From positions 1 through 21,162 of the IMG/VR virus record IMGVR_UViG_3300042344_000338: a stretch of 21,162 nt of DNA; one strand, 5' to 3'. Position 1 is the stretch's first letter. Each line of letters opens with the position of its first letter. A program made the translations under genes and the position numbers. Shown here in pieces: positions 728 through 11,227 of this stretch. Origin of the DNA: a virus. The notes under the pieces were generated by a model that saw nothing but the letters and a program-made list of their open reading frames with translations, was not told the origin of the DNA and searched no databases.

Positions 728-1359
728 AGACCGTCGTGCTCGTCAGCGGGCAGATGCGAACGGCCGACCAGTGTGCCGCGGGCATCCGCTCGCTCTATCC
801 CGATGCGACGTTTGTGGTACACGCCGTCGCTGACGAGGACGCCGAGAAAGCGTTCTTGTTCCGCCCGGCGGTGACGGTCATCGAGCCGCAGCACGAGATG
901 CCCGAGCGGCGGGAGTATTCGTGGCAGATGGGTCGCGGCTGCCACGGGGTGCAGCGGGTGCTCAAGCAGTTGTGGGGGCTGCGTCGGGTCTGGCAAGTCT
1001 TCGAGGCGAGCGGCATCGAAGCCGATGTCATCGTGCGGTGCCGGGCCGACCTCGCGTTCAGCGTGCCGCCCGAGCCGTTCGAGGGCGCGGGCTGGCGGGT
1101 GCCGACGTTCGCGAACTGGTGGGGCTTCAATGACCGATTCGGCTTCGGCGACTTGCAAGCCATGCGACGCTACTTCATGCGGCTCGACCGGCTCGATGAA
1201 TACATCGACGCGGGCGGCATCTTCCATCCCGAGACGTTCCTCGGGTGGGCGATGCAGGGGATCGCGGCTCGGAGCACGCAGGCAGTGTTCGCGACGGTGC
1301 GGGCCGACGGCACGCGAGACGAGCCGCAGTGGTTCACGAACGCAGGAGACATCCGGTGA
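724..1359 (+). CDS. Glycosyltransferase-like protein (RADLxF / NDRFxxG type)
   Basis: The 211-residue protein begins MKTVVLVSGQMRT, a first beta strand and loop typical of a family of polysaccharide-biosynthesis proteins. It carries RADLAF at 107-112 and NDRFGFG at 136-142, followed by a helix with QAM. These two motifs resemble those of glycosyltransferase-like proteins in capsule loci, where an R-x-D-L segment and an N-D-x-F-x-x-G segment are conserved. The donor and acceptor sugars cannot be told from the sequence. The start ATG 724 overlaps the methyltransferase stop (ATGA), and its stop TGA 1357-1359 overlaps the radical SAM GTG start, so translation of the three is coupled. No signal peptide is visible; the protein is likely cytoplasmic. 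The family resemblance is by eye and the enzymatic role is inferred. Confidence 0.5.
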   Translation: MKTVVLVSGQMRTADQCAAGIRSLYPDATFVVHAVADEDAEKAFLFRPAVTVIEPQHEMPERREYSWQMGRGCHGVQRVLKQLWGLRRVWQVFEASGIEADVIVRCRADLAFSVPPEPFEGAGWRVPTFANWWGFNDRFGFGDLQAMRRYFMRLDRLDEYIDAGGIFHPETFLGWAMQGIAARSTQAVFATVRADGTRDEPQWFTNAGDIR

Positions 1360-3098
1360 AGGTGCTGTTCTCGAATCCGCCCTGGTGGGATGTCTCCGAG
1401 CAGTACCTCCGCTGCGGCGTGCGGGCCGGCTCCCGGTGGCCGTTCACCATGCCCGCGAACTCCATGCCGGGCGAGTTCAAGTTCGGGGGCTACCTCCCGT
1501 ACCCGTTCTTCTTGGGCTACGCGGCGACCTACGCGGCGGCGAACACGACGGCCGAGATTCGGTTCCGCGATTCGATCGCCCTGCGGGAGACCTACCAGAC
1601 CTACGCGGACTACCTCGCGGTCGGGAAGTTCGACATCGTAGTGATCGAGACGGCGACCCCGAGTTGGCAGCACGATGCCCAGGTCGTGCAGATGATTCAC
1701 AACGTGCTGCCCGCGGCGAAGATCGTCATCGCCGGGCCGATCACGACCACGAAGAGCGACGAGATCCTTGCGACGCTGCCGGTTCACGCGTGCCTCCGGG
1801 GCGAGTACGAAAAGAACGCAGTGAAGGTGATCGAAGGGGCGAGCGGCGTGATCGACTTCGATCTGCTCACGCTCGCGGAGATGAACGCGGCACCGCCCCC
1901 GTACATGGATGCGGAGATCGCACACAGGTACTTCGACTACAACCCGATCGGTCAGCAGTACCCGCACGCTCATGTGTGGTCGAGTCGGGGATGCCCGTAC
2001 AAGTGCCTCGCGGGCGACACGCTCGTGAACACGGTCGAGGGCATGGTGCCGATCCGCGATCTTGTGGGCCGCACCGATGTCGGAGTCTTCACGTATGACC
2101 GCGAGGCGAAACGGGCGAAGATCTCGACGCCCCGAGTCATCGCCAAGACCGGCGAGAACCAGAAGCTTGTGCGGGTTCACTTCGATGACGGGTCGCACAT
2201 CGACTGCACTCCCGACCATCGGTTCGTAGTGTGGAACTACGGAGAAAACAGTCAACTAATCGAGGCGTCGCATCTCTCTTCTGAGATGCAATGCGTCCGC
2301 GTCTCAGGGAAGGTTTACGTTCGCACCCTAGCAGTCGAGGAACTGCCGGGCCTGCACGACACGTACTGCATGGAGGTTCCCGATACGGGAGTCTTCTACG
2401 CGAACGACGTGCTCGTCAAAAACTGCTGCTTCTGCGTGTGGCCTGCCGCGATGACGGGGAACGATCCCGACGGCACAAACGTCCGCAAGGTTCGGCACTA
2501 CTCGCCCGAGTACATGGAGCCCTACCTAACCGGGCTCGTGCGTGACTACGGGTATCAGTCGATCTATTTCGACGATGACACGTTCAACCTGGGCAACTCG
2601 CACGTCGTGAAGATGTGCGAGGTGATGCGGCGAGTCGGCGTGCCGTGGTCGGCGATGTGCCGGGCCGACACGAGCAAGATGGAAACGTGGTCGCTGATGA
2701 AGGAGTCGGGCTGCTTCGGCGTGAAGCTCGGATTCGAGAGCGGCAATCAGTACGTGGTCGACAAGATCGTGAACAAGCACCTCGATCTGGAGTACGCCCG
2801 CGAGGTGGTGCATGAACTCAAGCGGATCGGAATGACGGTTCACGGCACGTTTACGGTCGGGCTGCCGGGCGAGACCCGCGAGCAGATGCAGGACACGGTG
2901 CGGTTCATCGAGTCGCTCCCGCTCGACTCGCACCAACTCTCTGGCACCGCCGAGATCGAAGGCACGCCGCTGCACACGCTTCGCACGGCAGGGCACCTCG
3001 ATGCCTACGAAGGGGCGAGCCTCCCGGCTGATGCCGAGATGCACACCGACGGCAACAAGCGGTTCGCGATGCTGGCCGAGGAGCTCCGCAACTCGTGA
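1356..3098 (+). CDS. B12-binding-type radical SAM protein interrupted by a mini-intein
   Basis: The 580-residue precursor would splice to a 440-residue enzyme. Residues 1-210 contain a Rossmann-like region (FDIVVIETATPSW, then KIVIAGP and ACLRGEYE) like the cobalamin-binding domain in front of many radical SAM enzymes, although no clear DxHxxG cobalamin ligand is seen. The radical SAM core starts at GCPYK (212-216), is broken by the intein (217-356), and resumes with CCFC (357-360). After splicing this reads CPYKCCFC, the exact CxxxCxxC motif that holds the 4Fe-4S cluster. Later landmarks are FDDDTFN, GFESGN and the VGLPGET loop, typical of the SAM-binding barrel. GTG 1356 overlaps the upstream TGA, and the stop overlaps the next GTG. 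The substrate is unknown; neighbouring sugar-transferase-like genes suggest carbohydrate or lipid-linked modification. Confidence 0.85.
   Translation: MKVLFSNPPWWDVSEQYLRCGVRAGSRWPFTMPANSMPGEFKFGGYLPYPFFLGYAATYAAANTTAEIRFRDSIALRETYQTYADYLAVGKFDIVVIETATPSWQHDAQVVQMIHNVLPAAKIVIAGPITTTKSDEILATLPVHACLRGEYEKNAVKVIEGASGVIDFDLLTLAEMNAAPPPYMDAEIAHRYFDYNPIGQQYPHAHVWSSRGCPYKCLAGDTLVNTVEGMVPIRDLVGRTDVGVFTYDREAKRAKISTPRVIAKTGENQKLVRVHFDDGSHIDCTPDHRFVVWNYGENSQLIEASHLSSEMQCVRVSGKVYVRTLAVEELPGLHDTYCMEVPDTGVFYANDVLVKNCCFCVWPAAMTGNDPDGTNVRKVRHYSPEYMEPYLTGLVRDYGYQSIYFDDDTFNLGNSHVVKMCEVMRRVGVPWSAMCRADTSKMETWSLMKESGCFGVKLGFESGNQYVVDKIVNKHLDLEYAREVVHELKRIGMTVHGTFTVGLPGETREQMQDTVRFIESLPLDSHQLSGTAEIEGTPLHTLRTAGHLDAYEGASLPADAEMHTDGNKRFAMLAEELRNS
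2004..2423 (+). other. Mini-intein (140 codons) inside the radical SAM cluster motif
   Basis: The in-frame insert starts with CLAGDTLV, a standard intein block A with nucleophile Cys1. It has a block B segment with T69-P-D-H72 (the TxxH that assists the first acyl shift) and ends VFYANDVLVKN, matching blocks F and G with the terminal Asn140. The +1 extein residue is Cys, as needed for the second trans-esterification, so this is a true intein candidate rather than a bacterial intein-like domain. At 140 residues, with no LAGLIDADG or HNH block between B and F, it is a mini-intein lacking a homing endonuclease. The penultimate residue is Lys in place of the usual His, and the block F His is also absent. 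Removing it exactly restores CxxxCxxC in the host protein. Confidence 0.92.
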
Positions 3099-3808
3099 AC
3101 GTCACGGTCTCCGCATACAACCGCCCGGCGTATCTCGAACAGACGCTCGCCGCGTTGCGTGAGTGCGACGGGATCGCCGACTGCCGGGTGATGGTGCTGA
3201 TCGACCCTTCGGAGGCATCGGTTCACTCAGCCGCTCTCGCGGCCCGATACGGCTTCGAGTCTGGCACCTATCCCGATCGGGTCGGGTGCAACCGGGCGAT
3301 CCGCAACGCCCTCGCGTTCGGGTTCAACGAGATGGAGAGCCAGTTTCACGTTCACTTCGAGGATGACACGGTTCCGACTCGCGATGCCCTGCGGTGGTTC
3401 GCGTGGGCTGGCGATCACTACCGAGACGATCCCGCCGTGATGAACGTCTCGGGCTACCAGAAGATCAGCAACGGTCGGCTCGGCGAGTGCGGGCTGCGTC
3501 GCTGGTTCACGCCGTGGGGCTGGGGCGTCTGGCGAGATCGGTGGCTCGGGCTGCACCTCGGGTGGGTTCGCGACGATTCGACTTCGTGGGATGTGATCGT
3601 GAACCACGCCCTGCGGGCTGGGCGATACGAAGCGTTCCCCACAGTGAGCCGCGTCCAGAACATCGGGGCAGAGCAGGGCACGCATGTGCCCAGTGCCGAG
3701 TGGCACGCCGAGCATCACCGCGTGGCGGTCACAGCGGATGACATCGACGGGCCGCAGCCCGAGGCGTGGCAGGAAGTGCGGAGGGCCGATCGTGCAGATC
3801 ACGATTGA
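3095..3808 (+). CDS. Glycosyltransferase family 2-like (GT-A) protein
   Basis: The 237-residue product opens with VNVTVSAYNRPAYLEQTL, the usual first strand and helix of GT-A glycosyltransferases, in which Y/F-N-R-P is a common turn. An acidic cluster FEDDT at 89-92 sits at the end of a strand (QFHVH) and is the likely DxD-type site binding the metal and nucleotide-sugar. An aromatic segment WFTPWGWGVWRDRW (137-150) is like the acceptor-side loop of related enzymes. No transmembrane segment is seen. GTG 3095 overlaps the radical SAM stop by GTGA. Its 3' end overlaps the next gene by 17 bases. It could transfer a sugar to a phage or host component; the substrate is not predictable. GT-A membership is fairly secure. 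Confidence 0.68.
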   Translation: MNVTVSAYNRPAYLEQTLAALRECDGIADCRVMVLIDPSEASVHSAALAARYGFESGTYPDRVGCNRAIRNALAFGFNEMESQFHVHFEDDTVPTRDALRWFAWAGDHYRDDPAVMNVSGYQKISNGRLGECGLRRWFTPWGWGVWRDRWLGLHLGWVRDDSTSWDVIVNHALRAGRYEAFPTVSRVQNIGAEQGTHVPSAEWHAEHHRVAVTADDIDGPQPEAWQEVRRADRADHD

Positions 3809-9903: not shown

Positions 9904-10248
9904 GTGCCCACTCGCATACCCACCCACAGGCCGCTGCGTCTCCGCTCCGCTTCCCTCCAGGCGGCAGAGCAACTGAGGCCAAACGCGGCAGCCCGTGGGT
10001 ACTGCGACTCGCGGCACAAAACGTGGAGGCTCGCGGTGCTGACCCGCGACGCGTGGCAGTGCCAAGACTGCGGGCGTGTGTGTGCCGATCGACGCGAGGC
10101 CCACGCGGATCATGTGAGCCCGGTCGTGCATGGCACCGAGGTCTGCCGCGATGGGCGGTCGCGGTATGACGTTGCCGCTGGGCAGTGCTTGTGTGTGCGA
10201 TGCCACAGCCGGAAAACGAACAAAGAAAGTCGCTCGCAAGCAACGTGA
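9904..10248 (+). CDS. HNH endonuclease
   Basis: The 114-residue protein starts at GTG 9904, two bases after the previous stop. It has C53xxC56, the core HADHVSP (67-73) in which His and Asp form the active site, and C97xxC100-H101 followed by RKTNKE, the usual ending of phage HNH nucleases. The two Cys pairs bind a structural zinc ion. In HK97-like phages a small HNH protein next to the terminase is needed for specific DNA cleavage in packaging, and this one sits just upstream of the terminase genes (with one gene in between), so this role is likely. Confidence 0.85.
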   Translation: MPTRIPTHRPLRLRSASLQAAEQLRPNAAARGYCDSRHKTWRLAVLTRDAWQCQDCGRVCADRREAHADHVSPVVHGTEVCRDGRSRYDVAAGQCLCVRCHSRKTNKESRSQAT

Positions 10249-10272
10249 AAATCCGTACACTTCCATCTCCAC

Positions 10273-10280
10273 AAGGAGGT
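10273..10280 (+). promoter_or_regulatory. Strong Shine-Dalgarno for the second HNH gene
   Basis: AAGGAGGT lies five bases before ATG 10286. It is a near-perfect complement to the 16S rRNA 3' end, stronger than most starts in this window, and it rules out the much longer upstream reading in the same frame. Confidence 0.75.
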
Positions 10281-10285
10281 GGCGA

Positions 10286-11227
10286 ATGGCGTGCATGAAG
10301 TGCGGGTCGGATTGGGTGACGCTCAAGTGTAAGGACATGGTTTCCTGCCCCGAGTGCTGCAAGCAGCAACGGTGCAAGGCAAGGAAGCAGGGCAGGCTGC
10401 CGCCGGTTCAGTCGAAGCCGTGCGAGAGATGTGGGAGTCAGTTTGCCGTGCAAGGCTGTGCCGTCTCGGCTTCTAGGTTCTGCGACGATTGCAGGCTGCC
10501 GGCTAAGGGCGAGCGTCGCAAGAGGTGGGCCGAATCCAATCGAAAGGAAGCCACTCGCAGGCGTAGAGTCTGTCGAACGCTCGCGTCTTTCATGGCAGAT
10601 GTCCGAGCGGCAATGAGTGCTCAGTGCGCAGCTTCCGCGAAATGCCAAAGGACTCTAGACAATCCCCCGTGTATTTGTCGCAACTGCTCTAAGCCTTTCG
10701 TGTCTGACCCTCGTCATGCCAGCCGCTTTTGTTCTTGGCAATGCTGTGTGGCGTTCTGCGAACAAAGAACGTGCGAGACATGCGGGTGCACGTTTACGCT
10801 GCGAGCGACCGGGCGAAATGCAAGGTCAAAAAGAAAGCGACCGGAGTGCAAAAAATGCGTGAAGTCAAGATGGTTGAAGACCCCAGCCGGCAGGCGTTTT
10901 CGGAAGAAAGAGGAGCATCGAACTCGATGCCGAAAGTATGGCGTGCCTTACGACCCGAGCGTCAAGTCGCGTCTAGTGTTCGAGCGGGATAACTACGTGT
11001 GCCATGTGTGCGGCAGGCAGACGCTCATGATGTTTGCTTGGGTAGGCTCTGTGCCAGACGAAAGATCCCCGACAATCGACCACCACCCATATCCCCTGAG
11101 TGCCGGGATCAGCGGGCACGAGTGGCATAACGTCAGGTGTGCGTGCTGGGGCTGCAACGTCAGGAAGGGAGCAAAGATTGATCCGGTCGCGGCGGTCGCG
11201 GCCGGGCTTGATGCCAGGGGGGGGTAG
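10286..11227 (+). CDS. Zinc-finger-rich HNH endonuclease, probably mobile
   Basis: The 313-residue protein holds a chain of Cys pairs: C3-C6, C21-C24, C46-C49, C66-C69, C131-C134, C149-C153, C163-C166 and C188-C191, suggesting several small zinc ribbons that may bind DNA. A C-terminal HNH domain follows: C239xxC242, IDHH at 264-267, then HNVRCACWGCNVRKG (281-295). This arrangement is like free-standing homing endonucleases. It is Arg/Lys/Cys-rich and uses AGG and AGA Arg codons and AT-richer codons more than its neighbours, and it separates the packaging HNH from the small terminase. I infer a horizontal insertion. The start is fixed by a strong Shine-Dalgarno. It could also be an accessory nuclease. 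Confidence 0.75.
   Translation: MACMKCGSDWVTLKCKDMVSCPECCKQQRCKARKQGRLPPVQSKPCERCGSQFAVQGCAVSASRFCDDCRLPAKGERRKRWAESNRKEATRRRRVCRTLASFMADVRAAMSAQCAASAKCQRTLDNPPCICRNCSKPFVSDPRHASRFCSWQCCVAFCEQRTCETCGCTFTLRATGRNARSKRKRPECKKCVKSRWLKTPAGRRFRKKEEHRTRCRKYGVPYDPSVKSRLVFERDNYVCHVCGRQTLMMFAWVGSVPDERSPTIDHHPYPLSAGISGHEWHNVRCACWGCNVRKGAKIDPVAAVAAGLDARGG

Follow-up and report, generated by a model that had tools for sequence, protein, structure and literature searches.

A phage gene for a radical SAM enzyme is interrupted by a 140-residue insert that separates the first two cysteines of its iron-sulfur motif. The gene lies in the window, that is, the whole 21,162-nucleotide stretch of DNA analysed here (IMG/VR record IMGVR_UViG_3300042344_000338). 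This raises the question of what the insert is, and whether it resides there as a switch for the enzyme, as the original prediction had proposed, or as a selfish element. The reading we favour, with a probability of about 85%, is that the insert is a mini-intein, an endonuclease-less member of a selfish phage lineage of HNH inteins that inhabits the radical SAM triad.

The insert is a mini-intein within the cysteine triad

The insert spans positions 2004 to 2423 (plus strand, as do all features of the window given below), corresponding to precursor residues 217-356 (CLAGDTLV...VLVKN) between CPYK and CCFC, and contains no endonuclease. Profile comparison of the 140 residues alone, which the original prediction had called for, gave matches above the cut-off to both TIGR01445 (intein_Nterm; 46.4 bits, cut-off 24.5) and PF14890 (36.3 bits, cut-off 35.8). 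Within the folded whole precursor the intein reached a pLDDT of about 30, and this was remedied by folding it with 19 homologs, which yielded a Hint fold with a pLDDT of 93.5. The closest solved structures were the mini-inteins Npu DnaB (4o1r, TM 0.86), Ssp DnaB and NrdJ-1; the matches also included 3nzm, a redox-trapped DnaE intein that comprises its N-extein. The insert is an intein far beyond chance, as had been predicted from the letters alone.

Removal of the insert leaves 440 residues with the arrangement C-PYK-C-CF-C, i.e. CxxxCxxC, and the extein junction expected after splicing is ...GCPYKCCFCVWP... The same gene is empty in two close phage relatives, L004 (440 amino acids, 96% identity) and L005 (partial). 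L004 is collinear with the exteins and reads across the junction without interruption as ...SRGCPYKCCFCVWP..., with the triad CPYKCCFC, which bears out both the exact 140-residue boundaries and the restored motif. Likewise, all 80 cellular homologs fetched for the window extein were collinear at the junction, with an uninterrupted SRGCxxxCxxC. The empty alleles and these uninterrupted triads exclude a conserved, non-splicing domain of 140 residues. Protein splicing of the window precursor is likely, and the pattern of selection described below lends it indirect support. That the unspliced precursor could not hold a normal 4Fe-4S triad, as had been argued, follows from the position of the insert; every intein that interrupts a catalytic motif has this effect, which does not by itself amount to regulation.

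The host gene encodes a radical SAM enzyme, probably of the B12-binding type

The precursor gene (1356-3098) starts with GTG and encodes 580 amino acids. It matched PF04055 above the cut-off (47.5 bits, residues 356-518), and its NCBIfam matches were of the HpnJ/BchE/AprD4 type. The extein model had a pLDDT mostly above 80, with AprD4 (6fd2), MgmA (9ccb), TsrM and MiaB as the best Foldseek matches. Both the CxxxCxxC motif after splicing and the AprD4/TsrM/MgmA-like fold mark the protein as a radical SAM enzyme. The cobalamin-binding domain PF02310 scored 19.7 bits, under its cut-off of 32.1, but is present in the structure model and is matched by 17 of 18 family precursors; the enzyme probably belongs to the B12-binding class, which corrects the original prediction. 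The N-extein (1356-2003) consists of the B12-binding-like domain through CPYK, as judged from the model and from collinearity with L004. CPYK (1992-2003) contributes Cys213, or Cys-4, which is invariant across homologs, and CCFC (2424-2435) supplies the second and third cysteines of the triad as Cys+1 and Cys+4. The C-extein (2424-3098) forms the radical SAM barrel that matches PF04055.

Four open reading frames surround the gene. Upstream lie a weakly methyltransferase-like frame (98-727; PF13578 under cut-off, E 0.003) and a DUF7796 frame (724-1359; PF25072 above cut-off, 29 bits). Downstream are two frames resembling family 2 glycosyltransferases (3095-3808, PF13641/PF00535; 3792-4655, PF13704/PF00535), with all these matches under the cut-off. 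Farther along, the same record contains genes for a large terminase and a capsid protein, and the predicted phage context is supported. In two relatives with triad inteins, L190 and L192, epimerase genes adjoin the radical SAM gene, and in L190 nucleotide-sugar and glycosyltransferase-like genes do so as well. Because of these neighbours, it is reasonable to suppose that the enzyme probably belongs to a phage gene cluster for sugar modification. Elsewhere in the window, two overlapping Cys/His-rich frames (9904-10248 and 10130-11227) show HNH-like motifs by eye and are possibly free-standing HNH endonucleases of the same phage.

Splicing residues of the triad inteins

The window intein carries Cys1 in block A (2004-2006), the block B motif TxxH as T69-P-D-H72 (2208-2219), the terminal Asn140 and Cys+1, in agreement with class 1. 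Cys1 occurs in 22 of the 23 triad inteins examined; TxxH is shared with L002 and L003, and the family consensus is IDCTPDH. Three residues that are usual but not universal in class 1 are missing. Position 4 of block F is Cys122 (2367-2369) in place of the Asp common in class 1; Gly129 (2388-2390) replaces the block F His, as aligned to gp41-1; and Lys139 replaces the penultimate His before Asn140 (2418-2423). The two histidines normally serve Asn cyclisation. Of the triad inteins, 12 lack both, those of the window, L002 and L003 among them; in these, block F has Gly and the penultimate residue is Lys in 11 and Arg in one.

Class 1 membership is still allowed, since only the N-terminal Cys or Ser and the C-terminal Asn, Gln or Asp are omnipresent in that class (PMC7664689). 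Class 1 inteins of mycobacteriophages, which likewise lie at conserved motifs and have a non-canonical penultimate residue, have been shown to splice without the penultimate His (PMC5050341). They occupy other host genes, however, and the block F His that can stand in there is missing in the clade of the window.

All 23 triad inteins examined carry cysteines at -4, +1 and +4, and a further one at position 4 of block F (Cys F:4), the nucleophile that starts splicing in class 3 inteins (PMC5222942). We nevertheless rejected class 3 for the window intein and its family because Cys F:4 coexists with Cys1 and the rest of the WCT motif is missing, the Trp position being F74 in the window. Cys122 possibly helps splicing. 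One triad intein, in L294 (3025-3783), starts with Pro (codon CCA) in place of Cys1 and keeps Cys F:4 and Cys+1; it could splice in a class-2- or class-3-like manner, or be dead.

Empty, HNH-bearing and mini alleles coexist in close relatives

The gene of the window exists in three allelic states. Besides the empty alleles of L004 and L005, L002 carries the same mini-intein as the window, and L003 carries a 296-residue intein with an HNH_3 endonuclease (33.2 bits, cut-off 24.8). The window form lacks an endonuclease and has an allelic relative with HNH_3, as would be expected if it descends from a homing intein. The extein tree places the empty L004 within the group of alleles that bear inteins. 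The nearest relatives of the window intein (L003, L285 and L187) are full length, so the loss of the endonuclease in the mini form is probably derived. In place of the HNH module is a central linker of 98 nucleotides (2233-2330), whose GC3 is markedly below that of the rest of the gene (0.59 versus 0.81-0.90), a sign of a different source. This linker showed no alignable sequence with the insert of L003. Because of these differences in composition and sequence, we rejected simple deletion of HNH from an L003-like intein; the comparison indicates that the mini form arose by exchange or remodelling of the central module. A second mini form at a radical SAM triad, of 166 residues without an HNH motif, was found in L196 (442-939), where the endonuclease seems to have been lost independently.

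Divergence between alleles was compared in the intein and its host gene. Third-position differences between the window and L003 amounted to 9/103 in the splicing halves of the intein and 118/440 in the exteins (Fisher p 5e-5), and the same comparison of L002 with L003 gave p 1e-6. Intein and extein had dS values of 0.13 and 0.54, respectively. The intein is therefore younger in these alleles than the host genes are, which points to its recent horizontal spread. The window and L002 are identical over 143 nucleotides to the right of the intein site, a stretch that may be a conversion tract. The very recent transfer between these two concerns the mini form, which has no endonuclease of its own, and counts against the homing reading.

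Redox gating is not needed to explain the intein

The strongest competitor of selfish homing is the proposed regulatory switch, in which oxidation (a disulfide between Cys-4 and Cys1) or metal would stall splicing, so that the oxygen-sensitive enzyme is active only in a reducing cell. A precedent is the MoaA intein of Pyrococcus abyssi. In that intein (Callahan et al. 2011), a disulfide between Cys-3 of the N-extein and Cys1 is reported to block splicing, and reduction to free it (PMC10663303, PMC3922620). By that description the MoaA intein resembles the window intein in residing in a radical SAM enzyme, in having an N-extein Cys near Cys1, and in restoring an oxygen-labile enzyme on removal; it differs in being archaeal and in that redox control was tested there. 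Its Cys is at -3, the position expected if that intein lies ahead of the third triad Cys, whereas here the Cys is at -4 and the insertion precedes the second. The cysteines common to the triad inteins, together with Cys1 in 22 of 23, would suit such a switch. Yet the presence of Cys-4 is explained by its role as a cluster ligand, which it has in all homologs, intein-bearing or not, and the spacing at triad inteins is CxxxC, not CxxC. Moreover, the close relatives L004 and L005 live intein-free, and recent mobility accounts for the presence of the intein without any benefit. No result supports the predicted response to oxygen, metal or redox state; the three kinds of allele and the recent spread fit selfish homing without regulation. 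Since Cys-4 lies next to Cys1 in each triad intein and MoaA offers a disulfide precedent, gating is still a reasonable possibility, by analogy, for the triad family in general. As the explanation of the window intein, we consider it improbable.

Somewhat less probable still is a degenerate Hint insertion that no longer splices and leaves the enzyme dead. The missing penultimate and block F histidines and the missing endonuclease could be read in this way. The intein, however, has accumulated 9 synonymous changes versus 1 non-synonymous change, indicating purifying selection, and the extein dN/dS was equally low (0.06-0.08) in every pair, intein-bearing or empty alike. Cys1, TxxH, Asn140 and Cys+1 are also intact, and the Hint model is of high confidence. 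These observations favour a splicing intein over a dead one.

Related inteins occupy the same site in non-orthologous genes

Profile-based queries, made with the intein and with its junctions, recovered homologous inteins exactly at C-x3-|-C-x2-C in 24 viral contigs, a count that includes the window and two near-duplicate pairs and is drawn from an IMG/VR set in which some contigs may be non-viral. The site is thus not unique to the phage of the window. Among 18 precursors scanned, Radical_SAM was matched in 17, B12-binding in 17 and HNH_3 in 13. Their exteins form at least 10 clusters below 35% identity, with closest curated families ranging from HpnJ-like to KedN5-like, and the GC content of the loci extends from 0.28 to 0.65. 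The inteins are far more alike than their hosts: L184 versus L181, L185, L189, L192 and L193 gave 70-74% identity for inteins and 19-21% for exteins, L131 versus L174 gave 70% and 24%, and L174 versus L177 gave 68% and 23%. A single origin of the triad inteins was not rejected (p-AU 0.39), and with bootstrap values of about 60-64% it is weakly supported. The intein looks like a parasite aimed at an active-site motif rather than at one gene. In L192, a free-standing HNH_3 gene (1740-2249) lies about 100 nucleotides upstream of the radical SAM gene that bears an HNH triad intein.

The common site, and exteins that are all of the B12-binding radical SAM type, might instead reflect old vertical inheritance within these enzymes, with no mobile lineage crossing gene families. 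This is quite unlikely, given the excess of intein over extein identity between families and the absence of the intein from all 80 cellular homologs of the window extein. At the cut-offs used, genomes of Pseudomonadota (398), Verrucomicrobiota (195), Desulfobacterota (297) and Cyanobacteria (292) yielded no intein at a radical SAM triad, with a query that recovered six of six known carriers as a positive control. Nor was one found in 50,697 records of annotated phages. The term phage lineage, as used for the mobile lineage we favour, applies within what was searched, namely viral and phage records and these four bacterial groups; radical SAM inteins are on record in Actinobacteria and Archaea.

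Several candidates were set aside. The best cyanobacterial matches were RtcB inteins, and the Desulfobacterota matches L341, L342 and L344 lie in host genes other than radical SAM. An exact DNA pattern for CxxxC-LAGDT was too narrow: the true radical SAM genes that it matched were all from relatives of the window, and the others were recovered by the intein profiles. In a Campylobacter phage paper that names both inteins and radical SAM, the two sit in different genes. Our search, mostly outside subscription literature, found no paper that describes phage inteins inserted at the triad of radical SAM enzymes.

Comparison with known inteins

Inteins in radical SAM proteins are already known from MoaA and from NF038136, an intein-containing Rv2578c family radical SAM protein. 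The NF038136 match begins before Cys1 (residues 210-295 versus profile positions 70-156), which suggests an intein at the same triad position in that family, seen here through its profile; the score is weak (25 bits, cut-off 700) and the extein family different. The prediction that an intein at the triad seems rare was therefore partly wrong, given 24 viral contigs and a family already in NCBIfam. What is new, as far as searched, is a lineage apparently confined to the triad motif across non-orthologous genes; both the family at this site and its phage lineage appear to have been uncatalogued and undescribed.

The HNH inteins of cyanobacterial RtcB (NF052663, RtcB_rel_intein2) have a similar layout and cross-match triad inteins at 80-93 bits, but are inserted after VDIG and end VFVHN|CGM. 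RtcB genes with such related inteins were seen in L254 and L257-L261. The phage ribonucleotide reductase inteins (L028, L146), NrdJ-1 and gp41-1 are also mini forms (fold matches 8ubs and 6qaz). The reductase inteins have DTYC at block F, like the block F Cys of the triad family; they differ in host gene and site, and form a separate, strongly supported clade. Such reductase mini-inteins of 143-147 residues occur in L146, L159, L161, L162, L164-L166, L173 and L028, with SNL before CV..., an end TGN before C[SN]EI, the DTYC block F and a penultimate Gly. In L214 (2053-5907), one viral structural-type gene contains two successive inteins. It is very improbable that the insert cleaves without splicing, as a bacterial intein-like (BIL) or Hedgehog-type domain would: the Hint fold is common to all and BIL2 and BIL structures were among the fold matches, but the best matches are inteins, an allelic form bears HNH, and the insertion lies exactly within an invariant catalytic motif with a terminal Asn and Cys+1.

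Discussion

On the selfish-lineage reading, the inteins would colonise a single site, where codons separate the first Cys from the second in C-x3-|-C-x2-C. The translated insert would fold as a Hint domain, in which Cys1, Asn140 and Cys+1 drive self-excision, and excision would join CPYK to CCFC and restore the 4Fe-4S ligands of the B12-binding radical SAM enzyme. HNH-driven conversion of empty alleles would spread the lineage, which may sometimes cross between non-orthologous radical SAM genes, and it would persist because the site encodes an indispensable motif. The mini form of the window would be a derived allele that no longer cuts and blocks the site. To a bolder version we give even odds: a phage HNH lineage dedicated to a cofactor-binding motif, whose endonuclease would cut the DNA encoding C-x3-C-x2-C and jump among non-orthologous genes and phages, and whose two potential nucleophiles would bridge class 1 and class 3. 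Those two potential starting nucleophiles are Cys1 and Cys F:4, the latter being kept in L294 beside Pro1.

With empty, HNH-bearing and mini forms of a single gene, these close phages illustrate the homing cycle on a small scale in nature. Since homing requires flanking homology, inteins are considered to move to ectopic sites very rarely (PMC1635734). Here, closely related inteins occupy the very same active-site position in radical SAM proteins that are only about 20% identical, and the question of how inteins reach new genes can be put directly to the test, given defined donors and empty targets. The triad inteins likewise provide ready tests of splicing at an Fe-S ligand, both of redox gating and of Asn cyclisation in the absence of the two usual histidines. 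If true, a lineage dedicated to this motif would represent ectopic intein movement of a kind thought very rare, and may naturally connect the splicing routes of class 1 and class 3.
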